Positions 12,001 through 42,000 of a stretch of 64,000 nucleotides of DNA are shown here, piece by piece. The position numbers and the translations under genes are program-made. Under the pieces are notes generated by a model. It was not told the DNA's origin and searched no databases. It saw only the letters and a program-made list of their open reading frames with translations. Position 1 is the first letter of the stretch. Every line of letters starts with the position of its first letter. The DNA comes from Gordius sp. MW1 (taxonomy: Eukaryota; Nematomorpha; Gordioida; Gordea; Gordiidae): contig OZ038530.1 in assembly GCA_964036665.1 (NCBI GenBank), positions 19,056,001-19,120,000 of the forward strand, in the 5' to 3' direction.

Positions 12001-15000
12001 ATAGTGTTATGTTTAAGTCGTTTTAAACGCCATTAATATTTTGGTCTCAATTTTTATATATGTTTTTGTTGAAATATTAGAATGGGAAATAAGTTGGCGT
12101 GGCGATAATAACTCCAACCTTAAGTTTCACACGTTTACGTCATTGTTGAAGAACTCCACACTTCATCGATTCGTAAATGTTAAATTAATGTCACTCGATG
12201 CCGATCAAGCTTATACTGCTTCCTTGTCACGATTTGGAAAATATTATATAGCTACATCTTTAGCCGTGATGCAAGTATGCACGCGACACTTAGATTTGCA
12301 GGTATTTATCTTTTTGAACGTTATTATGTGCTTACGTTATAAAAATTGGCTTAGCCTCATCCCTAAAGTGTTATCAGCTGTTTAAATTCTTTTTTTTTCG
12401 TAAAAATATGGTTTTTTGGTATATGTATCTGATTATAATGCAATTTGTTAAAAATACTGCAATTGGAATGTATTAAGATTTAAGATAATAAGAGCTTTAT
12501 ATAAGTAATATGCTTTGCCTTTGTGAAAAAGGGCAGAAATTCAAAAAGATATAAAACTAAATATTGGAATTAGTATTGCTACAATCTTGAAAGTACCACG
12601 TCATTTTTTAATGAAGTATGAAAAGATTTTTTAGTATATGTTTTATTATTCATTTTAAAATAAATTAAACGATCTTTTTTTCGTAAATAAATTCTTTTCC
12701 CTACATAGGCAGACTCCCTTTGGTGCGTCTGTTTAGTTTTTGTTGTTTTTGCCTAACTAAATATGTATTATTAGAATGGACTTTATCATTACTGGGCCTA
12801 CCAAGATGGGTAAATAGAATATTTAAAGAGGTAAGGGGTGCAAAAACGGGCTGGACTTGCTTGAGATTTTGGCATTGACAAACTGTTTAACCCGCGAGAG
12901 TATTCGTGGGGTATTTCGAAACCCCACGCAAATTATAAATTAAAATATAAAACGCAATTTAAGGCTAATGAATTTGGTCTTTTCAGTAGCTTAATATTTT
13001 ACTAAGAGCTAGGTTGGATGAAAATTTCATAGGTTTTGGCTTAATACTTTTTAAAATATAAAAGCTTTTTTGGCTCGTGGGGTAAAGTTATACCCCACGA
13101 ATGCTCTCGCGTTCGGGAGTTTCAGGAATACTCTCGAGGGCTAATATAGTACTAACTAGTGTTGTAAAAAACCAAGGGTTTCTATTGGTTGCCTGCAAGC
13201 GTTGGCGTTTTTTTTCACCCAACCTTTTCAGTGTTAGGTGAATTTTCTTGGGAGGGCTTTGGCGTTTGGCGTTTTCGTAAAAAACACCCAAAGCGTTTTG
13301 GGTGTTTTTTTTGGGGGCACCTTTGGCGTTTAGGTTTGGGTGTATTAAAGAGCTAAAGGGTTTGGGTGGATAATATTATTAACCTTTTGGTTTGGTTTTG
13401 GTCGTTTTGGGTTGGGCATGCAAATATATCAATTTGTTTATATTGTTCATCATATTTGTGTATTTAGATTTAGGTAATGAACTTTTAATTTAAGAAAATA
13501 TAAATAAATGTATCATGACGTCACAATCTAGTAAATTCAGTAAATTATAGTTAATTATTATGCATTATAGAAGTAGGTAGTGAATCAATATGTTTTATTT
13601 ATGAAAAAAAAATTTGTGAAGATTTGCCCCCCCCCCCTTTATTTTTTACCCTCTTTCTCACCTGGGGATGAACGGCGGGCAGGTGGGGTGTTTGCCCCCC
13701 TCCTTATTTTTTACCTTCTTTCTGATCCGGGGGAGAAGCGGGGGGGGGGCAGGGGGGTGTTTTGCCCCCCCCCCACTAAATTTTTACCCTCTTTCTGATG
13801 CGAGGGAGAGGGGGGGCAGGGGGTGTTTTGCCCCCCTCCCCCCTTATTTTTACCCTCTTTCTGATGTGGGGGAGAGGGGGGGCATAGGGGGTGTTTTACC
13901 CCCCCCCCCCTTATTTTTTACCCTCTTTCTGATCAGGGGGAGAGGGGGGGGCATGGGGGGTGTTTTGCCCCCCCCCCTTATATTTTTTACCCTCTTTCTG
14001 ATGTGGGAGAGGGGGGGGGGCATAGGGGGTGTTTTGCCCCCCTCCCCCCTTATTTTTTACCCTCTTTCTGATGTGGGGGAGAGGGGGGGCATAGGAGGTG
14101 TTTTGCCCCTCTCCCCCCTTATTTTTTACCCTCTTTCTGATGTGGCTGAGAGGGGGGGGGGGCACAGGGGGTGTTTTACCCCCCCCCCCTAATTTTTTAC
14201 CCTCTTTCTGATCAGGGGGAGAGGGGGGGGGGCATGGGGGGTGTTTTGCCCCCCCCCTAATTTTTTACTTTCTTTCTGATGCGAGGGAGAGGGGGGGGCA
14301 GGGGGTGTTTTGCCCCCCCCCCCCCTAATTTTTTATCTTCTTTCTAATTCGGGGGAGAGGGGGGCATGAGGGGTGTTTTGCCCCCCCCCTAATTTTTTAC
14401 CCTCTTTCTAATGCGGGGGAGAGGGGGGCATGGGGGGTGTTTTGCCCCCCCCTTAATTTTTTACCCTGTTTCTGATCCAGAGGAGAGGGGGGGCATAGGG
14501 GGTGTTTTGCCCCCCCCCCTCTTATTTTTTACCCTCTTGAGAGGGGGGTCATGGGGGGTGTTTTGCCCCCCCCCCCTTTAATTTTTACATGTGGGGGAGA
14601 GGGGGGGCATAGGGGGTGTTTTGCCCCCCTCCCCCCTTATTTTTTACCCTCTTTCTGATGTGGGGGAGGGGGGGGGCATAGGGGGTGTTTTACCCCCCCC
14701 CCTCTAATTTTTTACCCTCTTTCTGATTAGGGGGAGAGGGGGGGCATGGGGGGTGTTTTGCCCCCCCCCCCTTATTTTTTACCCTCTTTCTGATGTGGGG
14801 GAGAGGGGGGGGGCATAGGGGGTGTTTTGCCCCCCCCCTAATTTTTTACCCTCTTTTTGATCAGGGGGAGAGGGGGGCATGGGGGGTGTTTTGCCCCCCC
14901 CCTTATTTTTTACCCTCTTTCTAATGTGGGGGAGAGGGGGGGGGGCATGGGGGGTGTTTTGCCGCCCCCCCCCCCCCCAATTATTTATCCTCTTTCTAAT

Positions 15001-18000
15001 GCGGGGGAGAGGGGGGGGGCATAAGGGGTGTTTTCAATAAATATAAAACGATTATAAAGTGAGATTTATCTGGCCATTCGAGAGCAGATTTTGAATTCAA
15101 TCCTTCAATTAAAAATTAATATTTTAATTCATTCTAAAATAATGACAGCTAAGAGATCCCCCTCTAAATATTCCCGGCAATAGCAATTTTAATCGCAAAA
15201 TTTAATTTCAAATATATTTTGAATTCCTCGCCTCTTGTAAAAGATAAAGACTTATTAATTATATAATGTCCCTTTTATTTTATATTTAAACTCTATTTTC
15301 AATATCAGAGAACGGCATCCCGCGCGACTCGACATATCACCACTTCCATGTAGCATGTACATGTTCATGTACTAATCCACCCTCTCTCTTCCTTCTCTCG
15401 TTGCAATGCATGCGCAAAACCAGATTTAAACCTATCAGATTTAAGTAAGTACTAAACTAAATATATAAAAAAATCATGGCACAACAAGGCAGGGTGTGGC
15501 GTGGGCTGGCTAGGCTCTTTATTACATCATTTTACATTCATTTCTTTTTTAACGTACAACATATCAAGGTATGTAGAAGTTGCAAATCATATTATTATAA
15601 ATAAAATAAATGAAAATTAAACTTTTTTTTATTATGTCAACTACTAATTAAGTCATAATCAATTAGAAAATTAAGTTTCTTATTAAATAATAAGCAATAA
15701 TTTAAATTAAGATGCTTAACTCATTTTTGTTACTCAGAAAAGTTCGATATTTTTTATGATCCTTATAAGCATTGTAAACGAGAAGTCTAAGTCAACAGGA
15801 CGTAGAGTGTTGGTGCCTTGTGAAAGCATAGTAATTAATAGCATGATATGCTTTTTGGAAATACCAAGTTTTTTCATTAAATGCCCAGATAACTTAAATA
15901 GTAAAACTTACTTACCCATGATGGCAAATTTTTTTAAACTGGTAAAATTTCATATTAATATTATATTTAATAATACAGTTTATTTCGTAAATGAAGTTAA
16001 ATTAAAAAAATTTATTTTAATTGATATGGTATATTAAGACAATTTTTGACCGCAAATCTTCAAAAATATATTTTCGAATATTAGAAAATCTTTGTCATAT
16101 AATAAGGCAATTTTCAAAAAAAAAAATTTCAATAGAAAATGTTGATTAAGACATTTGTCATCACTGTGACCGCAAATCTTCCCAAAAATATTTTTTATAA
16201 TAGTAGAACATCTTTCATTCATATAATAAGTCTATTTTAAAAAAAAATATTAATCTCAATAGAAATTGTTGATTATGACATTTGTCACCACTGTGACCGC
16301 AAAAATTCACAAAAATATTTTGAAAGGGTTAAAAAGGGCTTTCCGGCCCCCCCCCGGGTGAGAAAGAGAGTAAAAAATAAGAAGAGGGTCGATTCACCCC
16401 CCCCCCCTCTCCCCTGCATCAGAAAGAGGGTAAAAAATAAGGGGGGGGGGCAAAACACCCCCCATGCCCCCCCCCTTCCCGGGTGAGAAAGAGGGTAAAA
16501 AATAAGGGGGGGGGCTAAACACCCCCATGCCCCCCTCCCCGGATGAGAAAGAGGGTAAAAAATTAGGGGGGGGGGCAAAACACCCCCCTGCCACCCCCCT
16601 CTCCCTTGCATCAGAAAGAGGGTAAAAAATTAGGGGGTAGGGGGGCCAAACACCCCCTGCCCCCCATCTCCCTCGCATCTGAAAGAGGGTAAAAAATTAG
16701 GGGGGGGGCAAAAAACCCCTGCCACCCCCCTCTCCCCCACATCAGAAAGAGGGTAAAAAATAAGGGGGGGGGGGCAAAACACCCCCCATGCCCCCCCCTC
16801 TCCCCCTGATCAGAAAGAGGGTAAAAAATTAGGGGGGGGGGGGTAAAACACCCCCTGTGCCCCCCCCCCTCTCAGCCACATCAGAAAGAGGGTAAAAAAT
16901 AAGGGGGGAGGGGGGCAAAACACCTCCTATGCCCCCCTCTCCCCCACATCAGAAAGAGGGTAAAAAATAAGGGGGGAGGGGGGCAAAACACCCCCTATGC
17001 CCCCCCCCCCCCTCTCCCACATCAGAAAGAGGGTAAAAAATATAGGGGGGGGGGCAAAACACCCCCCATGCCCCCCCTCTCCCCCTGATCAGAAAGAGGG
17101 TAAAAAATTAGGGGGGGGGGGGGGGGTAAAACACCCCCTATGCCCCCCCTCTCCCCCACATCAGAAAGAGGGTAAAAAATAAGGGGGGAGGGGGGCAAAA
17201 CACCCCCTGCCCCCCCCTCTCCCTCGCATCAGAAAGAGGGTAAAAATATAGGGGGGGGGCAAAACACCCCCCTGCCCCCCCCCCCGCTTCTCTCCCGGAT
17301 CAGAAAGAAGGTAAAAAATAAGGGGGGGGGGCAAACACCCCACCTGCCCGCCGTTCATCCCCAGGTGAGAAAGAGGGTAAAAATAAAGGGGGGGGGCAAA
17401 TCTTCACAAATTTTTTTTTCATAAATAAAACATATTGATTCACTACCTACTTCTATAATGCATAATAATTAACTATAATTTACTGAATTTACTAGATTGT
17501 GACGTCATGATACATTTATTTATATTTTCTTAAATTAAAAGTTCATTACCTAAATCTAAATACACAAATATGATGAACAATATAAACAAATTGATATATT
17601 TGCATGCCCAACCCAAAACGACCAAAACCAAACCAAAAGGTTAATAATATTATCCACCCAAACCCTTTAGCTCTTTAATACACCCAAACCTAAACGCCAA
17701 AGGTGCCCCCAAAAAAAACACCCAAAACGCTTTGGGTGTTTTTTACGAAAACGCCAAACGCCAAAGCCCTCCCAAGAAAATTCACCTAACACTGAAAAGG
17801 TTGGGTGAAAAAAAACGCCAACAACTAAGCTTAGCAATACGCTGGGAAAAACCAGCCAGCCGTTTTTACAACACTAGTACTAACCATAGACTAGATAGAC
17901 TGTTCATCAACGCACAAAATGTGTACCCTTTTTTCCACCATGATGTGAACATGGTAAAGTGGTGATCATATAGAAATTAGTAATTTTCGCAAATTAAATA

Positions 18001-21000
18001 ATCATATAAAGGTAAATAAAAAAATATCGAATTGGGTAGATATCAAAAACAGCATTTTAAAATAAATATCATTTATACAATACATAAAAATTAAAAATGT
18101 AAAAACTGCGATTAAAGTTTGTTTAATAATATAGCGCCATCAATATTTTGTATAATATTAATTTATTCACGTTTGTTTTAATTTATAAACTAGTGAGGAA
18201 GGTAAATTGACTGTTATAGGGCAACATTACATGGTTAAATGCGCGAGTTGCACTCTTCAAAATGGAGGAAAATTAGACACACAATTAACCATATGCAACC
18301 TATGGCATGAGCAGTCTATCTAGTCTATGAAGAATATAATTATTTTACAATATTTAGGGTGACAGCGGTTATATTTGCGATTTTTAACTACATTTTAAAC
18401 AAGCACAATTAAATTATTGTATCGCGATGAAGATATTTTTTAAATTCTTGCAATTATTTGGGAAATAGGGAACAAAGAATCTAACCTTTATCGATTCGTG
18501 CTTGTGTTGGAATTTGATGATGAATTATTACCGAATACTTACTTCGCCAATAATAACAACTCCTTCACCTAAAGCAAAAACTTCCTCTAAGGTCACTGTA
18601 TATTTTTTTCTTACCCTAAATCAATAATTTTAATTAATAAATATTTTACCAACTATTATTCAATGGAAAAATAAATCATGCTATAGTGAAAACAAAGTTA
18701 AAATGTTAAATATGCAGTTAACGTTTTATCAGGAATTTTATATCGCGAGATTATTTTCCAACTGGTGTTTCCTTGGATTAAAAACCCTATAGATTGACGG
18801 ACATATGATTTTTGTATTGAAGTCTTTTGACTAACTTAGTCCGCCATTTTGTGTGAGGAATATGCGGACTTGTTTAATAAAATTTGCAAAAGTAATGTGA
18901 GAATAATGATGAAAAAATTGGAAAATTATTTTTGGATGCAAAAGTTTATCAAACATGGTGGCCTACACCCTTACTTAATACTTATGACCTGTTCGCCGGT
19001 CTATTATATCAATTAGTGTTGTAAAATCTGCTGCTGGGTTTTGTTTGATCGACCTTTGCTTTTATTCGATTAAAAATCAACGAACCAAATGTTTTTTCGC
19101 CTGTTTTTCTTAGTCGACCTTTAATATTAGACGGAATTTGAAAAACAAACCAGAGTAGACCATTAGTACAAGCAAACTCAAAAGTATACTAAACGAGACC
19201 TGTTGTAAAACGGCTGGGTTTTGTTTGGTCGGCGTTTGGTTTTAATCGGCTAAACATAAACGACCAAAGATTTTTTAGCCTGTTTTTTTAGTCGACCACT
19301 TTGCTTAGTCGAACTTTGACGGATTAGAGTCGCCCGTTAGGCTTAGCAAAATTAAAGGTCGACCAAACCAAAACCAGCCGTTTTTACAATCCTGTATTAT
19401 TATTAATCTATGGGTATTTCTTGATTTGGTGACTATAAATATTTAACTCTTTGCGTAGATTCCTACGACCATCGCCTCACTGCTATTGTCCAATTCAATG
19501 GACCCCTTTCCCCAAAATCAACGGTCCCAGACCAATGGAAACCTAGAGCTCAGATTTTATTTGGGCGATTTTAATCGCACTCAAAATCTCAACGATATGA
19601 AAATTGCGTTACGTCAATCCTTCTCAAATACCTATTCAAGCTTGCAGTCGTTCAGGTTTACGAGATTATTTTTTTCATTTTATTGTTTTTTTCAAAATTA
19701 GTTTAATTTCCATGATTTTTTTAGTGCAGTGAAGTGACTATTAATTTGACATTCATAAAAAATTTGTGTGGAAAAGTATGCTCTCATTTAAGGCGGGACT
19801 AATTAAAGAGGACATCATTACGAGATTGAGTTTTTTTGCAAAATCAATTTGATTTACATCATTTATTTTAAAGTTGAGTGAAGTGGCTATTTGATTTAAC
19901 ATGCGTTTATAATCTTCTAATCTAAGTATTAATATGAGCTTAGTTATGGCGAAAATAGTTTTAAAAAAGGACTTTGCCGTTTTTCATTGTATAGTGAAAG
20001 TAAAAAGCTCCTTTTTTCATTTTTAACGAAAAATTCTAATTTTTTGTGGGGTAATATTTCTATAGTACGGACTATGCTCGTGGGTCGGTCGAGTATGTAT
20101 CCAGAACCCTAGCTTCAATGGACCCAGCCCGAAGAGAGGATAAAGCATATATAACCGTGCAAACCTTAAATCAGTGCTTAATGCAAGTTTTGGAGTCCAA
20201 TCCTCAATGTCATTTTTCCGAAAGTCATTCAAGTGGAAGTGAATTAATATTGGAAAAAGGTGAAAGGCTTATTAAAACCTCCATTTCTGATCAATTATTG
20301 ATCGCTCGGGCGTCTATTAATACTATCGTGGGTAGCTTGCTGCGGTTGGATTTTGTAGTGCCAGATTTGCACCTTGACCCCTTGGTAGAAACCCGGCTAA
20401 AAAGCCAAATGAAGACCGATGAGGTTAATATTTTTTACTTAAATGTATGTTAATGTAAATAAATTTTTGATTAAAGTGTTTTAACTTTTACTACTTTGTC
20501 GATATTTATAGAGTTTTTCAAGGTTAAATTTGTTAGGTTGAGGTCTTTTGGATAAACGTTTGTTGTAGATCCTTTAATGAGTATCGATTAAGCATACAAA
20601 ATAGTTTTATGATTTAAGTATATTATATTTGTACACGTTGATTGAATGGAATAGCTTTGTCGATTTATTATCAAATTGGGGTCTCTTAGTCCAATTCAAG
20701 ACTTCTATTTATCGATACTTTATGGCATTCCCAATTATTTAAAGATAGGAAAATGGGTGACTACTAAAAAGATAATCAAAATTTTACTATTGTTAGGCAC
20801 TTCAATAAACGACAATTAATTGCAAAAATCATAATTACAATTATACCAAGCCTTTTCAAAGAAATTTCTTAATAAAATTGACAATTTGATGCACACCTAA
20901 AAATGTACATGTGTTTTCTATTATGTGGGAATTTAAAAATAGCTCGCGATCCATACGCGAGAGTTAAGGGTGAAAGCGACGCGACACAAAATTTTGAACC

Positions 21001-24000
21001 TCACATTATCAACGACCAGCTTTAAAACATCAAACTCCCGAGAAATTAATATTATAGAAGAGTTTTTGGGATTGGATCATAGCCATCCCCGCGTAGGATA
21101 TTTGAAAGAAAGATTCTACGCCTTGAAACGAGATGACAACCACAAAGAAAATGCTGTAGATAGCGCCTATAAACGGCGATACCCCGATATGGTAAGTGTC
21201 CTGGTAGTGCGTGCTCTGTTTTTATTGTCGATGTTGTGAGCGTTATTATATAAATAATATAATCTAGTTAGTTAGTTTGACATCTTTTTTGTAAAGTTTT
21301 ACTTTTTGTATTTTTTAATGTTAATTTTCTCCTTTTTTACAAACTTTTTTACTTTTTTTAATTTAAACTCAACTTAATTTTGCCTTTGAAACTTTTAAAA
21401 CGATATGTGTTGTTGTTGTTCTTATGTATGTTTTATCGCTATTTTTCTACTCGTACAGATATTTATTACATTTCTTCTTGTTTTCAATTTTTTGTTCGAG
21501 TATGAGCGTTAAGCTAAATAATTTAGATTACAATACAAAATGATTTGTTTCAACACATATTTAGTCAACTTTACATATTTTAAAATTGCAAAATTAAGGT
21601 GAAATTGTGTAGAAAGCAGGGTTTGCTTATTGACTAATATTAAGTAATAACATCATTAGTTATTTGGTGTATTTGTAAAACAAATTTAGACATGTTATAA
21701 CCACATGTATATCGTAAAACGTTATTCGTATATGCGTTTAGTTTTACGCCCTTCAACGCGATTGCCAAAAAATGGTGGTGACCTGTTTAACGCGACCTAC
21801 CCTCCTTAGTTTCAGTGAATATTTCCGAGACTTTATCAATTGCCTGCAACACAGCGACACGTGTAAAAATAAATTGGAAAATGTGTTGAAATCGTTCCCG
21901 GAGGAGAAAAGTAAACTGGCTGCATTGGAGAAAACGCTTCACAATTTTATCTTTAAACTGACCTTCACCTACGCCGAATTCATAGACATTTGGACTCCGT
22001 TCGTTAACGCACTCATTCAAGTAATCTTTGCCTCACATTTTAATTAAAGGATTTCTATAAATCTTATAAAAAAACAAGTTAGAATGATAAAAAATCCTTT
22101 ACCCAGTGTCATATATGTGAATGCATGAACGGAGAGTTGAATTTATTTTGACTTTTATTTCTATATCATTATCTACAGATTATATTATTGCTTTAATTGT
22201 ATGATGTTTTAATATTGTAAGCCAAAGCCGAGGTGATAAAATCATATTTCCATGTATTCACATATTTGACACCTGGATAGAACTTTTTGAAAGAAACTCA
22301 CTCTTCTTGTATGGGTGTCGGGAAGTGTTGTAAAAACGGCTAGGTTTAGTTTGGTCGCCCTTTGATTTTAGTCGACTAAACATAAACCAAAAAGAGAAAC
22401 AGACCAAAAAATCTTTGGTTTTTACGTTAAGTCGAGGTAAACCAAAGGTAGACCAAAAAACCCCCAGCCGTTTTTGCAACACTAGTGTGGGGTTATGTGG
22501 CATCCTAACATTTCTACATCCCCTATAATAAATCCTCTACTCGGGTTGTGGATTATATGTATGATGACTGATATCTCTTAATGTAAATGGTAGTGTGATA
22601 ACAGCCTTTATTGAAGTGTTAGTAGTTTTTATATGTTTGAGATGGACTTAGTTAAAGGGAAGAAGGGAGGGAAAAAATTCCTGCTTTTATATTAATTGTT
22701 CATGTATATGTTAATCGAAATTTATGCTGAAATCTTATCGTTATTTTGCACTTACGTAAAGTAATACCAAACTTTTTACCAGCCTTTAATTTAAATTCTG
22801 ACTAAGCTCACTTAGCTAATAATAATGATTTTAGTTTATATTTCTTGTAAAATGTTATTTAATAGGATTTTTAAATATTGCTAGAGAAAGAAGTTTTCTT
22901 TTTTGAAAAGCACCTATTCACAAATACTGTTTTTTTAACGAATATAATTCTAAACTTATTTTTATTATCGGCATTATAATTTTCTTATAAGTTTTTAGAC
23001 CCTTTATTATGATTTGGTGGTATTTTATTGCACGGCAATTGTATTTTATTATCATAAAACGCTCTAACTTCACAAAACTGAGCTTAAAATTTATAGTAGC
23101 CTCGAAATTTTACTTTTATTGACTATATTTACCGTTATCTAATATAGATGCTTATTGCGATAACCAATCTCATACATGCAACCTCTTATCTTTACGACAA
23201 AGCCAAAAGGATGTTTGAAGTAATTGAGTTTTTAAGTTTGAGTGTTAGAATTCTAGTTAAATTTACAACTATTTTCCTTCTAACACGGTTGTTATTTTCT
23301 AACAATTAATTAGGACGATGTTTTGAAAACCTCTCTGTGGGATCTTGTGGTGGAAAATGTGAGAAGACGGGCTAATTTTGAAGGAATAACTTTTTATGGA
23401 CCCCTGATCCATTATTCCTGCATTGCCTTACCCACCGAGTCTCTAGTTAACTACTTGACCACGAAGAGTACAAGCACCAACACCGGCCAAACTTTTACTC
23501 TTTTTAGGTTACTTTTATTTAAAACCTCGTTATGTATTTTTTGCAATTTGTTTATTTAACCATGGGAGTAGCCAGGTTTGGAATTAGAGGGGGCAATAGT
23601 AATTAAGGGAGGGGCAATATGCATTTTATTTGAAATATTAGCCATTATTATAATAAATTTTAAAGAATTTTTTGGATTTAGAGGGGACAGTCGCCTCTCC
23701 CTGTCACCCCCTATCTATGCGCATGTATTTAACTTAATGCTTGTATATATGCTTTTTACAATTAAATTTAGTGTATTGTTGAGGATGTGGTAACGTAACT
23801 TTGAGTAAATTTAAATTTTAAAGATATTGCTAGATACTGTACTCTAACATAGAGTTCGTTTGTCTGAAACTTGTTATTTTGTATTTTACACCTTTTATTC
23901 ATTGAAAATATCTTTTTAATCACACAAGCCAATCCACATTTTTGAGATGGAACTTTGAAATAATTTAATATTACTATTTGATTATATAAATGAGTGTATT

Positions 24001-27000: not shown

Positions 27001-30000
27001 TTATGAAATGTGCACAAATAAGGGAATGACTTATGGAATTTTGGTAAATTGAAGTATTTTAAAGCGTAATAAAAGGATATTTTGATCTATTTAAACATTT
27101 GAAACAGCATTTTAAATTATATATCATTTACAAAATTTATATAAAAAAAACTGTGATGATGTGATGTTAATGCAATTTAGTGCCATCGGCATTTTGTAAA
27201 ATATTAACTAAGGAGTAAGGTCTCCTTTTTTAGTTTTAAAAAGGGGGTACACTGCAGAAAGACATGGGAGATAGTTAAATTCAAAATGTTGGATTCAATG
27301 ATACACATTCTACCATATGAAACATTTTACATGAGCAGTCTTTGCATGTAGGCCAATGATATTATTTATTATCAATTCTTTGTAATATTATTCGTTGTAC
27401 GAAAGCGGTAAGGTTGGTGATTTCATCTCAACTTTTTATTTTCCTGTTCATGAACTATATATGCCCGAAATATCGGGTGACATCAACCCCACCGCTTTTA
27501 TGCGACAAATTATATGTAGGAATGTTTTTAGAGTTAAAAGGAGGGCCAGGTACTGGGTAGGCAAGAAATTATATTTTTTGATGCTACTTATTTATATGTG
27601 ATTATTGTGTTTTAATAAATTATTATAATATTTAAGTACTTGGTGGTTTTTAAAGAGATCCATCATAAAATATTTTAAATCCAAACAATGACTGAGTTGT
27701 TGAAACATTAAGGTTGAGTTTGTTTCGAATTTTGTTGATCGGGGACAAAGGTTTGCCAATATGATTTTATCAATTTTAATAGTTAAGTAGGGGAAAGTAA
27801 CCTAGACATTTTAATGTGGTAAATCGATGTTACCTCTCTAACTTTTTGTCTTTTAATATATAAAATTTTAAACTCTCATTATTTTTTATGTTTTTACATA
27901 ATTATATTATAGACGGACCAAGATTCAACGAAGCAGTGCAAAGATTTAGTTGCATTTATTTACGATTTTCTCCACAAATCTCCGGTAGGACAATACGGGG
28001 CTCGGTTGAGGTTACTGAACAACGTATGCAATTATCAGAAATCAATTAGTAAGAAAATAAATACCGGCTCCTTAATTCAATATATTTTGGCGTGAACTTA
28101 TTTATTTAAAATTAAAAAAGCATGATCTTACTCTTTTTTTGTTTTTTGATTTTATAGAAGGTCATTCAGAAATTATCGATACTGTGTTCTCTGTGCTTCA
28201 ATACTGCACAACTTTTGAATATACGATCGACAATTACATCAAAAATGTGCAACTCCAATATACTCAAGATTTGAAAGTATTTAACATTTATTAAGGGTTG
28301 CGTAAAATAGCGTATTTTTGTTTAGGAACTCATCAAAAAATATAAATCAAGATTGAAAACCATCGAATATCATACTCTGATCAAGACATTTCAAGCCAAA
28401 CTCAATAAATTACAGACTTCGTTTCAAGTTTGCAAATTAGCTATATATTTTAATTCTTTATTTAGTTAATTTCATTTGAGGTATAAACATTAAAAAAGCT
28501 AATAATTTAAAATCGCATAGATATCAAATTTGAAAACTTATATAAGGAATATATGTATGTAATAGCTTCATATTCTGCAGATATCATTATCTCGAATTTT
28601 TAACGAATAACTCATTTCATTTGTTTAACTTGAGGTTTTTTTTATTATATTCATATTATATATTGACAAAAGTATAGTCTATATAATTTACACTAACTTA
28701 CTGGCATATCTTTTTTGTTTTAAGGTGTATAATAAAACTTTTGTTTGTATTTTATGTTTACAATAGGGAATTTTGCTGAAGAATGCTAGCGAAGTTATAG
28801 AGACGCAAAAAGCTTCAATTTTGAATCCCCAGAGCCCTGGTCAACCTTCAAACCAACTAAGCTCCTTAGAATTCTTAGAAGAACTAGTGTCTCAACCATT
28901 AATAGAATTTGGCAAAAATGCTGTAACGGCTCGATGCAAACTGTTGGCGAAAGCCTTCACCAATCATATAGGACCCAAGACCAGGATTCCAAATTTGAAT
29001 CTTTTTTTGGTCCAAATGACGGGTAAAATTACGCTATAAATATATAATTTTGCGAATCTTTTTGTTCATTAGGTGACGTTAGAAATTTGGGAGAAGTTAT
29101 TGGTAAGAGGGTTGTTTTTGCCGAAGAAAAAGAACTTTCATACGACGTACACCATAAAACCAAAATGTTTGCCGATCTCTACAAAGCATTTTATCTATCG
29201 GGTATTACAATGTTGTCTCTTATTTTTGTCAATTTCAGTAACGGGCTTCTAGAAGTTATCAATTTTGTTTTTAATAATATCATTTTATTAACCTTAAAAC
29301 TCGCTGGGCTCATCACATATACAAGTATTTGGTTGATAGTAGTGTTGTAAAAAGACCTGGGTTCTGTTTAGACCAGGGATAGGCAACGCGGCGCCCGCGA
29401 TCGATTTTTAATGCGCCCTCGCTGAACTAATGTAAATGTATGATATGAGCGTATCTAATAACACACACGTGTTTTTTGTTCGTGTGTGATCGTATTTCGA
29501 ATAGACCACGCGTAGACCGTGCATTTAAAACTGCCAAGTAATCCGAAATAATTTTTTTCTTTCAAAACTCTTCATGGATATATGTAAAAGAAAAAGAACA
29601 TATTATTTTAACGATGAATGGGAACATCAATATTGTTTCGCTGATTACAAAGGGAAGTGTATTTGTTTGTTGTGTAATAATAGTGTTGCGATTCCCAAGA
29701 AAAGTAATATTGAACGACATTTCATGACCGTTCATACAAATTTTGATAGTGATTATCCAATAAACTCTGAAATTAGAAGAAAAAAAATTATTTCTTTAAA
29801 ATCTTCAAGAACTAACCAACAAAGTTTTTTTACTAAACCAATGCAACAACATAAAGCAGCAACGATCGCGTCATATAAAATATCCCATTTGCTAGCTAAG
29901 AATAAAAAACCATTTACAGATGGAGAATTAGTGAAAGAAGCCATGTTAGAAGCTGCGGATTCACTTTTTGAAGAATTTAAAAATAAAAAGGAAATAGTTT

Positions 30001-33000
30001 CAGCTATAAACACGTTGCAATTATCAGCACGAACTGTTACTAGAAGAATTGAAGTAATTACGGAGAATTTGGAGGCAGAATTAGCAAGTGATATGGAAAA
30101 TTGTAATTTCTTTTCGCTACAGATGGATGAATCGACAGACGTGACAAATATATCACAATTAGCAATTTGCGTGAAGATGGTATTCTCTGATTTTACGACA
30201 AAAGAAGAATTCCTTAAAGTTCTGCCATTAAAGGGAAGCACCAGAGGAGAAGATATCTTTTCTACTTTTAAAAAGTATATAACAGATGTAAAATTACCTG
30301 TACAAAAGTTATCGTCAATTACAACAGACGGGGCACCAGCGATGACTGGTAACAAAAAAGGATTTATTGCCTTATGTAGACAGGATTCCTTATTCCCGAA
30401 ATTTATTTCTTACCATTGCCTCATACATCAGGAAATGTTATGCGCAAAAACAATCGGTTTTCAACACGTATTTACGATAGAAAAATTATTAATTTCATAA
30501 GATCGGGAGCTATGCAACACAGATTGTTTAAATTACTTTTAGAAGATGAGGACGTTCAGTTCACAGATCTTCTTTTACATACTGAAGTGAGGTGGCTGAG
30601 TAGAGGTAAAATATTTGAGCGGTTTATCATGCTTTTGCCACAAATAAAGGAATTTATTGCATCAAGAGGCGAATTTTACGAGCAATTAGAAAATAAGGAT
30701 TGGCTAATCGACCTCGGATTTCTGACAGATATAACGGCAAAGTTGAATGAATTAAATTTAAAAATACAAGGGAAAAATCAGCATATCGCTGACATGATTA
30801 GTGCAGTAAATGCATTCAAATGCAAGTTAGTGTTGTTGAAATCCCATCTATTGAAAAAATCATTATCACATTTCCCAAATATAAAATCTACTGTTGAGAG
30901 TTTAAATTTGAATAATGAAAATTTTACTGCTACATCATATTTAGAAATTATAGATAAGCTAATAGAAGAGTTTTCTTCTAGATTTGAAGATTTTGCAGCA
31001 TTAGAACTAGAGATGCACCGATACCACTATTTTTGCCGATACCGATACCAGCCGATATTTAAGATTTTTTTGCTGATACCGATACCATGCCGATACTTAT
31101 AATAAAAAAAATGTTTATACTACGAAATTCGACTGGATGTCTAGTTTTTAAATGTTTCCTTAAATTTGAAGTATTAAAGGAATGTTTGTCTTTGCCCCCA
31201 CGACTTATTTTAGCTTTGCATAATTCACAGATTACAATTTTTTCTTCTGCTGACACAACAAAATAACTCCATAGTGTATCTAAAGAATCCATCTAAGGCT
31301 TAATATATAATAATTTTAAAAAAAACACTATTTACTTAAAAGCGCAGTTGTTCGGAACAGATGGTCAATGAGTTTATTATACTTCATATAGAAATATTTA
31401 TAGGCAATCAAATGAAACAATTTTTAAAAAATTTAAAAAGTCCTCTATTTTTTAATGGTAGGAGATACTATAAATATTATTGAGTTTCATATTGAAAAAG
31501 GTATCGGCTTGGTAATTGCCAATACTAGCAAAGTATCGGCCGATACTTTTGGCAAGGTATCGGCGCCGATACCATGCCGATACTTGGTATCGGTGCATCT
31601 CTAATTAGAACCCGTTCTAAGATTTTTTATAAATCCATTCAATGTTACTGAAGATGATGTCCTTGAAATAGTTTCAGTGTATTTCGAGCTTCATAATATC
31701 GAAGACCTAGAATTAGAAATAATAAACTTGCAAAGTGATATTATTTTAAAAGCGCATAGTAATGATAAAACGTTTTGGAACTTAGTCGATGAAAATAAGT
31801 ATCCTATTTTAAAGAAATGTGCGCTAAAAATTTATTCATATTGTGCAACAACATACAATTGCGAGTCTTTCTTCTCAAATATGAAATATTTGAAATCAAA
31901 ATACCGAACAAAGCTTACTGACTCACATTTAGATAATTGTTTAAGGACCGGGAACTCTAAATATATCCCCAATTATAAGAAATTAGCTGAAAATATGGAC
32001 ACCCAAGTTTCACACTGAATTATATGTAACATTATGTATCATTATGTATGACACCAACAAAATAAAGTTACAAAAAATCTGTTTTTTAAATGCCTATTTA
32101 TACCTGTTGATCATTTGTAAAATATGCGCCCTCGGTAATTTTCAAATTTAGTATTGCGCCCTTAAGGACAAACAGGTTGCCGACCCCTGGTTTAGACTAT
32201 GAATAACGGCCTACATGACCATAACAGACCAAAATCATCAGGTCTCTTTTTCAAATTTCGTCTAAGCCTAGGGGTCGGCTAAGAAAATCAGACCAAAAAC
32301 CTTTGGTTTATTGCTGTTTAGTCAATTGACCTTAAAAGTCGACTTAGCAACCATGTCTTTTTACAACACTAGTAAAATATTTTTTAATCCGAAAATAAGT
32401 ATGTAACTTTATTGCGAAAATTTGTATACTCCATCTTCAGGAATGTCTTATCGGAAGGGATTATCGCTGTGTAACAAAAATCCCACCAATTTTACCCGAC
32501 CGAATTTCGAAGTTTTTATGAACGTCGAACAAGCCCTATCTACCCAAGTTGTAGAATCGAGCGATTTGTGTGGAGGCAATGAAGGACTGCATCCTTTAAC
32601 CACTAGTAGCGATCATTATTACTACCAAGGTCTCTCGGGTTTGCTCAAGTTTCACGAACACTTTTCAAAATCACATACTCAGGTAGTGTATTTTCAAATG
32701 ATTAAAATGTACGATATTTCAAATCTTAGATTCTTTATCAATCAACTGTATTAAGTTGTTAGTTTAAAGTAGGAATGAACAGTTTTAAATTCCCATTATA
32801 TATTTTTTATTGAAAGGTTTGAGCACTTCCCACTTTGACTTTTTTTTCGTTAATTTTTTTTATGTGATTGTAATAATATAATGCTTTCTCCTCAAGACAT
32901 ATTTTTACATTGTTTAAGTTGCTATTTTTATGATTAAATGACTAAGGTCCAGTTACTATCTAAATCATGGTATCAAATTTTATAGTTTTTTTTCCAAATA

Positions 33001-39000: not shown

Positions 39001-42000
39001 ACACGATGTTTGTAGTAAAAATGCAGTAAAGCTACTTAAAAAGTTAAGTTTTGGTGTAAAAATGTATGTTTAAATGATTTTAGACAGAGAAGTCTCGTCA
39101 AAATAAACGGGACAAACCGTCTGCTCAAAAAGACAAAAACAAAATTGCCAACAAAGGAGGATCGCGAAGCAAAGAAGTAAACATTTTTCATGATAAATTA
39201 AACCTAGTAATAATTAATGTTATCGATTAAATTAGGAGCAAAATAAATCAGCACCTGGAACAGCTTTCGATATACTGTCTGAGGACGAAAACGATTTCGA
39301 AGATACCTCAAATCTAAACGATCTCGAGCTTGAGGAAAATGCATCGGTTGAGTTTAATGATGAATTTGACGCAGAAAATATGGAGTATGCAACTAAGGAA
39401 TCTGCTCTCAATAAACTCAAAGATGACGGGGTATCAAATTTTAAAATCTTTAAGTTTTTTATTTGTGTATTATTTGATAGTTATAAAATTTGGTACTTTT
39501 TAATTGCCTATGCAACATGGGCTTTAGCTAGTTTTTAAATTACAGGGTGGGGGCAAAGTTTTTTGTTTTAAGGATTATATGGAAATTTTTGACAAATTTC
39601 AATGTAAAAAAACATTTTTATGTGGGCGACAGCTGCCTTCTATTGTACGCCCAGGAAGCAGAAAGTTAGAAGCCAATTTTTTTATCTTTATATTAACTAA
39701 CAACTTATAAGTTCCACGATTGTTGTCGTTTAAAAAATGCGATTTTTATGGCAACTACAATGCAAATTTAGAATATACCGAAGTTTTTGGAATAGTTTTA
39801 TGGCAAATTTCTAAAAAAATCATATTTTTTGAATTTATGCAGGCAAAAACAGTTTCTGGGTTCGGTGAAAATGGGGAAACGATCGAAGAGTTAAATGAGA
39901 TCGACCTTGACCCTACCTTTGATAAGATGGAAATTGATGATTTAGGGGTGAAAGAAGTTAAAATCACATGTCGAGATGATAAAGGAAGGGATCCTAGCAA
40001 GGATAAAAGCGTTGATACGGAGTCTAAACACTACGAAAACCTCAGCATACTCGACTCTAGCCGATTACACTTGGATGAAAATGAGAACATGGTGATATAT
40101 TTATTTTCCCTTTTTTGCCGATTTTAATCTGGTATTTCACAAGGTTTGTCATTGTTTTCATAATATTATTCCTACATTTAGAAATAAGGGCATTCAAATA
40201 TAGCGGCCATCTTGAAATGATCTATTGCTAATATTTTTAATCGTATTTTAGAATTCGATTGTAGATCTCGTTGACGAAGAAGATGGTAGAAAATCTGCGC
40301 TAAAGGTATATAACATTTTTGCTGGGATAATAATTTGAAATTTATTTAGGAAAATGACATGCTGGAACAATATTTGGACATTTATCACGAGGCTTCACAT
40401 CAGGCTCAATACCTCACCGAACAGCTTAGGATAATATTAGAACCAACGACGGCATCTCGCTACAAGTAATTGCCCTTATAAAAACTACGATAAATTTTAG
40501 TTGTTTTTATCGATTTTGAAACAAATATTTACAAATTTTTAAAATTAGGCCCGTCTGCATGTTAAAATTTAATTTTTGCACTGTTTTAGGGGAGATTATA
40601 AGACGGGAAAAAGGCTAAACATGAAGAAGATCATCGATTACATAGCGAGCGATTACAGAAACAACAAGATATGGTTGAGAAAGACGAAGCTGAGTCAAAG
40701 GGACTATAACATTATTATAGCCCTGGACGACTCTATGAGCATGAGTGAAAACATTTCACACACGGTAAATTTTCAATTATAATATTATTAAATTTTATCA
40801 TTCGTCGAGATATATTATTAATATTATTGTTTTTTGGAAATACTTTTTAAATGATTTTTATCATGAAATATAGATGGCGATTCAGTCTTTGGCGGTCATA
40901 AACAAGGCTTTTGCCTTGTTGGAAGCTGGAAACTTAGCGATTTGCAAGTAAAATATTTTAAAATAATATGAAGCAGTCTGTTAATTATAAGTCGTATTTA
41001 TACAAAAATTGCATAGCAATCAATATATAACACCTTATTTCCAAGTGTGAACTTGAATATTCGTGCGACTTTAATCACGACAGCGTTGGTTTTTGTAAAA
41101 ATTAGTGACTATTAAAAAATTAACCTGTTGTCGCATTGCCGTTGACCAATGACCCTTATTTATTCAGATGGAAATTAAATAAGTTTAGCCTAAATTTAGG
41201 GAAAACATTTAATTAAAAAATAATTTGTTTAAAAATATACCTAATTTTTAGCGTTTAATTTTAAAATATAGCAGACATATACCTTTTCTATGCAACAATT
41301 AATTTTCAAAGTAGTTTTTATCTTTGGCATTGTATTGCTAACAAAAAACTAAGCTTTATATCAACTTGTTTGAAATGTTCGCTTCTTGATAACACAATCT
41401 AATAAACATTTATTTATCGAAGCTTTTGAAAAGGCAAATTTATAAAATTAATCTAATGTAGCTTTTCAATTTGCCTCAAAAATTCCTTTATTAGGTTCGG
41501 TAAGGAAGTTAATATGGTGCAAAACTTTCAAAAACACTTGTCCGATCACGAATTAACGCGTTCGCTCTTGGATAACCTAACTTTCCAACAAACTACGACC
41601 GACCTAGCCAATTTACTCGCGTTCACGAACCATTACTTCGCCTCCAACACTAGCAACAAATCTTCCCATTTAATATCCGATACTGAGAATCACGAAAATT
41701 TATTGATCATCATCTCGGACGGGAGGAACGTGTTTGGGTGTGGGAAGGAAAATTTGCAACGGGCCGTTCAACGTACCCTAGCTGCAGGCATTTTCGTGGT
41801 ATTCATCGTATTGGACAACCCCAATACTAAAGTAGGCCTTTAGTAAAAAAAATGTACTATATATAAAGTAAAGTGTATGTATGTATGTAAGGGCTAAATT
41901 GTGAAACTACCGGCCCGATTCGCGCGAAACTTTACCCGTAGGTTCCCAGGGCGGTTAGGGGTAAAATAGCTTTTCAGAATCCTAAAATTCCTTAATTAGT

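Follow-up and report, generated by a model that had tools for sequence, protein, structure and literature searches.

A probable hAT-superfamily foldback transposon family with minisatellite arms in the genome of Gordius sp. MW1

Introduction

What kind of transposable element carries kilobase-long inverted arms built of minisatellite, and to which transposase does it answer? The question is raised by a 4.7 kb insertion in the genome of the nematomorph Gordius sp. MW1 (assembly GCA_964036665.1; 212 Mb in 12 contigs), which spans positions 13157-17876 of an analysed stretch of 64,000 nucleotides on contig OZ038530.1 (C4:19056001-19120000), hereafter called the window; positions below are those of the window unless a contig is named. 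In the portions of the literature drawn on here, foldback architecture has been assigned to the Mutator superfamily (Tm1, PMC3169594; Tetris by suggestion, PMC4079207) and to the P superfamily (Galileo). Comparison of copies across the genome indicates that the window element is very probably a young, non-autonomous member of a foldback transposon family of the hAT superfamily. A transposase would recognise the tips together with the conserved outer arm, excise the element and reinsert it with an 8-bp staggered cut, and the two inverted arms would be kept alike through homologous recombination or repair.

Structure of the element

The element is a single insertion bounded by a perfect 8-bp target-site duplication, GTACTAAC (left copy 13149-13156, right copy 17877-17884). 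Its tips are asymmetric, with 44 bp on the left (13157-13200, plus strand) and 54 bp on the right (17823-17876, minus strand), and they agree over the first 14 bp only and diverge beyond. The long inverted arms start inside these tips with outer arms of 444 nt (left, 13201-13644, plus strand; right, 17379-17822, minus strand) that match in inverted orientation at 99%. Further inward lie a left array of a 68-bp G/C-run minisatellite (13623-15034, plus strand; 21.0 copies by tandem-repeat count) and an inverted right array of about 15 units (16341-17400, minus strand; 14.8 copies counted over 16400-17400), the outer 10 units of which are mirrored (score 15, reached by 0 of 200 shuffles, the largest of which scored 7). 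The arrays enclose a loop of about 1.3 kb without a hAT reading frame (15035-16340, plus strand), and within it lie 2.2 copies of a 127-bp repeat (16047-16321, plus strand) and, at 15562-15565, a 4-bp overlap of two loop halves. An earlier note, made from the window sequence, had described the perfect duplication, almost identical outer arms of about 430 bp, more than 1 kb of inverted G/C-run minisatellite, and tips common to short miniature inverted-repeat transposable elements (MITEs); all of these hold, and the five MITE tip pairs checked enclose 157-202 bp. Within the window there are 21 sites for the 14-bp tip TAGTGTTGTAAAAA (at most 2 mismatches; mean 2.3 and maximum 8 in 100 shuffles), and Rfam at gathering thresholds returned no match within 12901-18100.

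A dispersed family

Searching the genome separately with the left end and with the loop, as the earlier note had proposed, recovered multiple copies with their own 8-bp flanks. The left end gave 609 first-look candidates, and the 40 that were scored all matched at 97-100% over nearly the whole query; the loop gave 876, with all 40 scored candidates at 94-100% in the main match. Because of these matches elsewhere in the genome, the loop, which had been called unique, is single-copy within the window only and is otherwise part of the same repeat. Twenty stretches surrounding left-end hits were fetched, and 19 of them contain the entire element; in the remaining one, L020, the right end falls beyond the 8 kb retrieved. 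The loop is conserved at 93-100% in all 19. Perfect, locus-specific 8-bp duplications flank 18 of these 19 elements (L026 agrees at 6 of 8 positions), as well as the window element, L057, L058 and the two transposase-bearing copies described below. The fetched elements are 3771 to 8510 bp long, and a 229-bp copy, L059, represents a further deletion that fuses both outer arms. L057 and L058, which lack the exact arm motif, were considered as autonomous elements and rejected as an ordinary foldback subfamily.

Motifs of the family were also counted, with no site for any of the reversed controls: 169 genomic sites for the first 36 bp of the left tip and 291 for the first 32 bp of the right tip (both at most 2 mismatches; part of the latter belong to sister families), 228 for the arm motif (at most 3 mismatches), and 3847 for a 21-bp minisatellite unit motif (at most 1 mismatch). 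The first 100 minisatellite sites listed form 10 complete clusters, nine of them plus-then-minus and one minus only, and in this sample the units thus sit in inverted pairs and not in free satellites.

Transposase-bearing members

Long copies were located by pairing the listed tips, and the middle of one of the four that were fetched (L069) encodes a hAT-like protein. The other three, at C1:15.20 Mb, C1:14.63 Mb and C4:15.09 Mb, were discarded as transposase carriers, since they hold other insertions, two of them retroelement-like by eye. The transposase-bearing copy on C4 (C4:23401221-23409826; 8606 bp, read from three overlapping stretches) has the duplication GTGGAAGC on both sides. Its left loop half ends at the putative start ATG of an apparently intron-bearing gene, and beyond the stop codon of this gene the sequence rejoins the window loop at 15562. 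A second copy, on C2 (C2:19531331-19538002; 6672 bp), has the same tips, a perfect duplication CTACAAAC and the same junctions, following the window loop to 15565 on the left and from 15562 on the right. Because the C4 and C2 loops are the same as the window loop but interrupted by a hAT gene at 15562-15565, the window loop is best described as the transposase-bearing loop minus its gene, the 4-bp overlap being the deletion scar. The composite that the earlier note had envisaged is not supported, as a single family combines arms, arrays and loop in copy after copy; the note's proposal of a hAT-type foldback is strengthened by the transposase gene inside the same loop, and the two copies are transposase-bearing relatives with shared tips, close to the autonomous relative that it had suggested seeking.

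The exons of the C4 gene look open where read. Three exon pieces were scanned (E up to 0.01; first exons outside the scan) and gave a firm match to Dimer_Tnp_hAT (PF05699; E 2.8e-18, 65.9 bits, cut-off 21.4), matches below the cut-off to hAT-like_RNase-H (PF14372; E 1.3e-4, 22.5 bits, cut-off 27) and DUF659 (PF04937; E 9.9e-5, 22.5 bits, cut-off 34.7), and no match to a P-type (THAP) or Mutator transposase. The gene copies at C4, C1:6715875 and C8:24793598 show a rounded identity of 100%, and all three have an exact left tip some 2.75 kb upstream, an indication of recent movement. On C1-C4, where the lists of exact tips are complete, there are 10 gene copies with at least 87% identity and a length of at least 850 bp. 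All but C4:13405424 have a listed exact tip or arm motif no more than 10 kb away, and four of these nine belong to one segmental duplication.

Several further observations concern hAT sequences in this genome. Four copies of a transposase-bearing foldback piece lie 27-37 kb apart at C2:5.55-5.67 Mb, three in the same orientation and one inverted, apparently as a segmental duplication. In the C4 copy (L071/L069) the transposase intron is longer by about 1 kb of DNA that includes CCCGGGAAA-like motifs and is absent in the C2 copy. A search of PDB with one transposase exon gave a single weak match (E 0.0042), to a putative nisin-resistance protein, which was taken as chance. Genome-wide, Dimer_Tnp_hAT yielded 3413 first-look candidates, and all 150 that were scored exceed the cut-off, so that hAT sequences are very abundant. 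Twenty of these 150 hits were examined as potential partners and set aside: the foldback tip (at most 2 mismatches, expected orientation, within 1.2 kb) was found at none of the 20 flanks, and the 3-mismatch matches seen in 12 of the 20 are regarded as chance.

hAT signature at the ends

The ends agree with the superfamily suggested by the gene. Among 23 perfect duplications (L026 left out), T occupies position 2 in 17 (binomial 1.3e-4) and A position 7 in 20 (3e-7), both being present in 15, against a background of 0.345 per base. The tips begin with TAGTG at both ends in all 20 elements shown. Target-site duplications of hAT elements follow the consensus nTnnnnAn, which is also compatible with P elements, and hAT ends start with YARNG, a rule that the TAGTG tips fit. 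The duplication motif and tips alone would leave the P superfamily possible.

Exchange between arms

Within an element the two arms differ by an average of 4.1 events, versus 7.4-7.7 between elements (22 elements). Three loci hold near-identical insertions, namely the window element, L028 and L029; the window loop is identical to that of L028 and one substitution away from that of L029. Other differences among the three are nearly all in the lengths of G/C runs, except in the left arm, where four substitutions and an indel cluster at element positions 183-416. Over this cluster the left and right arms of the window element show no differences, and those of L028 and L029 differ by 5, a pattern that resembles a conversion patch of either direction. 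Of 23 elements, 10 (several of them close relatives) have their units mirrored to a degree that none of the 200 shuffles attains. Among 40 copies, 34 could be oriented and 6 could not; in 7 of the 34 the loop is turned around with respect to the tips. L030 carries an additional partial loop between its arrays. Recombination between inverted arms, by a pathway that we infer, would explain these features.

Sister families and the role of the minisatellite

Seven sister stretches were found through right tips that have no window-type left tip or arm nearby, and all share this right tip at their start and have a related outer arm. The array period is 110 bp in L061, L065 and L066, 119-128 bp in L060, L062 and L064, and about 64 bp in L063, whose unit is related to that of 68 bp. 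Within the window loop, the 127-bp repeats resemble the arm arrays of L060, L062 and L064, which they match at about 67-80%. A few 68-bp-type units lie further inward in L061; as this stretch covers only 2 kb with a complex layout, no layered order of minisatellite ages is claimed from it. Across these comparisons the outer arm appears as the better conserved part and the minisatellite as the variable one.

These data bear on the alternative that the minisatellite arms serve the transposase as arrayed binding sites and are selected for mobilisation, as proposed for the ends of Galileo, where further binding sites were identified in tandem repeats (PMC3688188). In the window family and in all seven sister stretches the arrays lie inward of the outer arm, a position that would suit such a role. 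However, six of the seven sister stretches have arrays of other periods, and conservation of the outer arm alongside a variable minisatellite argues against sequence-specific recognition of the 68-bp unit. Each of the 11 ends examined has 1-3 instances of the motif GGCGYTTT in its outer 230 bp, and the left array of the window element has none, evidence that is weak because the motif was picked by eye after the arms had been viewed. Selection of the arrays as binding sites is accordingly judged unlikely. Since sister families with the same right tip mostly differ in their minisatellite, the minisatellites look like products of slippage and arm exchange and not like conserved binding sites.

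A cAMP response element (CRE)-like palindrome, TGACGTCA, is present at 13516-13523 and in the outer arms of L057, L060, L061, L063-L066 and the C4 copy. It is absent from L062 and kept in most subfamilies examined, and it is possibly a promoter or binding site.

Weighing the interpretation

A further alternative is that the C4 and C2 copies owe their hAT gene to the insertion of an unrelated hAT element into a foldback of another superfamily (P or Mutator). Nesting is common here, as illustrated by a different hAT element inside a family A MITE of the window (29366-32197) and by the retroelement-like insertions that other long copies hold. The edges of the C4 gene, however, show neither an 8-bp duplication (best 6 of 8, reached by 199 of 200 shuffles) nor 12-bp inverted tips (best 8 of 12, reached by 185 of 200) beyond what shuffled flanks provide. 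Two copies at different sites share the identical two junctions, the putative start ATG sits at the end of the left loop half, the sequence past the stop codon runs into the right loop half, and nine of the 10 longer gene copies on C1-C4 lie near foldback markers. An unrelated passenger is therefore considered highly improbable. That the assembly wrongly joined an arm to its own reverse complement is hardly credible: G/C-rich inverted repeats are hard to assemble and G/C runs vary in length between near-identical copies, but the left tip has 44 bp and the right tip 54, the arrays are unequal in unit number and in their inner units, and the 19 complete stretches, 18 with perfect duplications of their own, are independent copies that counter the earlier note's concern over such a join or a lack of other joined copies.

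Placement of the window element as a young, non-autonomous hAT foldback also has to accommodate several observations that weigh against it or against the accompanying account of arm exchange. The copy with an open-looking gene (C4) has arms and arrays only 82% alike to those of the window element, and the copy with the exact arm motif (C2), which was read at its ends and junctions only, has a gene broken by small indels and an in-frame stop. Mirrored unit order does not exceed shuffles in 13 of 23 elements, the conversion-like patch could have arisen in either direction, and differences in G/C-run length between copies may be sequencing error. Folding of the 68-bp minisatellite shows no clear excess over shuffles (z -1.45; 17 of 200 shuffles as good).

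Other features of the window

Family A MITEs share the 14-bp tip with the foldback element, and about 21 bp with its right tip. Three of the five tip pairs checked have 7 or 8 of 8 duplicated bases (1802-1989, GAGCTTAC, 8/8; 22323-22484, 7/8; 43233-43423, TACAATAC, 8/8), and the others have 4 and 6. A MITE-type 34-mer has 5913 genomic sites (at most 3 mismatches; control 0). Family A MITEs and the foldback element may plausibly be cross-mobilised.

The window also contains a hAT gene (29529-32018) that was considered as the autonomous partner, since TAGTGTTGTAAAAA flanks it at 29340 and 32371. It was rejected because the element to which it belongs (29374-32189) has its own tips, CAGGGATAGGCAAC and GTTGCCGACCCCTG, and its own duplication, GTTTAGAC (by eye), which show that it is nested in a family A MITE (29366-32197). 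Its other scored copies match the inner part of the 3032-nt query, most of them from about 26-54 to 1668 and then from 2265 no further than 2865. The right MITE end is not reached by any of them, and the copy at C6:11432296 starts at query position 6. The nested element thus carries a stretch (query 1669-2264) that is absent from its other scored copies, and it has zinc finger, DUF4371 (below the cut-off) and dimerisation matches. Elsewhere in the window, an exon with a VWA match lies at 41457-41843 among other coding exons, which resemble those of a large AAA protein such as midasin.

Comparison with known foldback systems

Ac/Tol2-like hAT transposons have 8-bp duplications with the T2/A7 bias and YARNG tips, both common to the foldback family described here, in which the hAT dimerisation domain is also found. 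Unlike this family, hAT elements usually have short inverted ends and not kilobase-long minisatellite arms. The open-access literature, surveyed through titles and the starts of abstracts, with Repbase and Dfam outside the search, yielded no description of a hAT foldback with a transposase. At about even chances, hAT would be a third superfamily, beside Mutator and P, to have evolved foldbacks with transposase-bearing members, forming here one clade in which the outer arm was kept and the inner minisatellite was repeatedly replaced (68, 110 and 127 bp), with traces of another family's array left in the window loop as the 127-bp repeats. If so, foldback arms would arise by recombination between inverted ends and not by selection for a particular repeat. 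A single genome here holds non-autonomous copies that are numerous and nearly identical, relatives that carry the transposase, and sister families whose minisatellites differ, a system that allows the function of long arms, their homogenisation and the origin of foldbacks from an ordinary hAT transposon to be tested.

Among the systems compared, each through the parts of its source relevant here, Galileo of Drosophila is similar in its long, internally repetitive inverted ends, its transposase-coding sequence and the active exchange of sequence among copies (PMC3688188, PMC3573991), and this foldback-like element has generated chromosomal inversions (PMC3688188). Galileo differs in having a P-superfamily transposase with a THAP domain, whereas the family here has hAT domains and tips of the form TAGTG..CACTA. 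Tm1 of root-knot nematodes likewise has inverted ends that are composite and repetitive, with asymmetric motifs at the termini that lie outside the inverted repeat, and it includes both MITE-like and transposase-coding members (PMC3169594). However, its duplications are mostly of 9 bp without a clear consensus, it has an internal motif of about 14 bp, and it is assigned to Mutator in the title of its description (PMC3169594), in contrast to the 8-bp duplications with T2/A7 bias and the hAT gene seen here. Tetris of D. virilis also has tandem repeats (about 220 bp) in its arms and a variable middle without coding capacity, but its authors found no autonomous copy and suggest Mutator, its mobilising enzyme was never found, and its repeats also form longer satellite-like arrays (PMC4079207), whereas 9 of the 10 complete unit clusters sampled here are inverted pairs. 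The gadMor-hAT MITEs at inversion breakpoints of Atlantic cod are hAT-derived, non-autonomous and have inverted repeats in tandem arrangement; they are tandem MITE insertions, and the portion of the source used here describes no foldback arms with a transposase-bearing member (PMC12368964). The family in Gordius sp. MW1 is thus placed as a hAT foldback because its architecture is like that of Galileo and Tm1 but its duplications, tips and transposase gene carry the hAT features for which they were tested.

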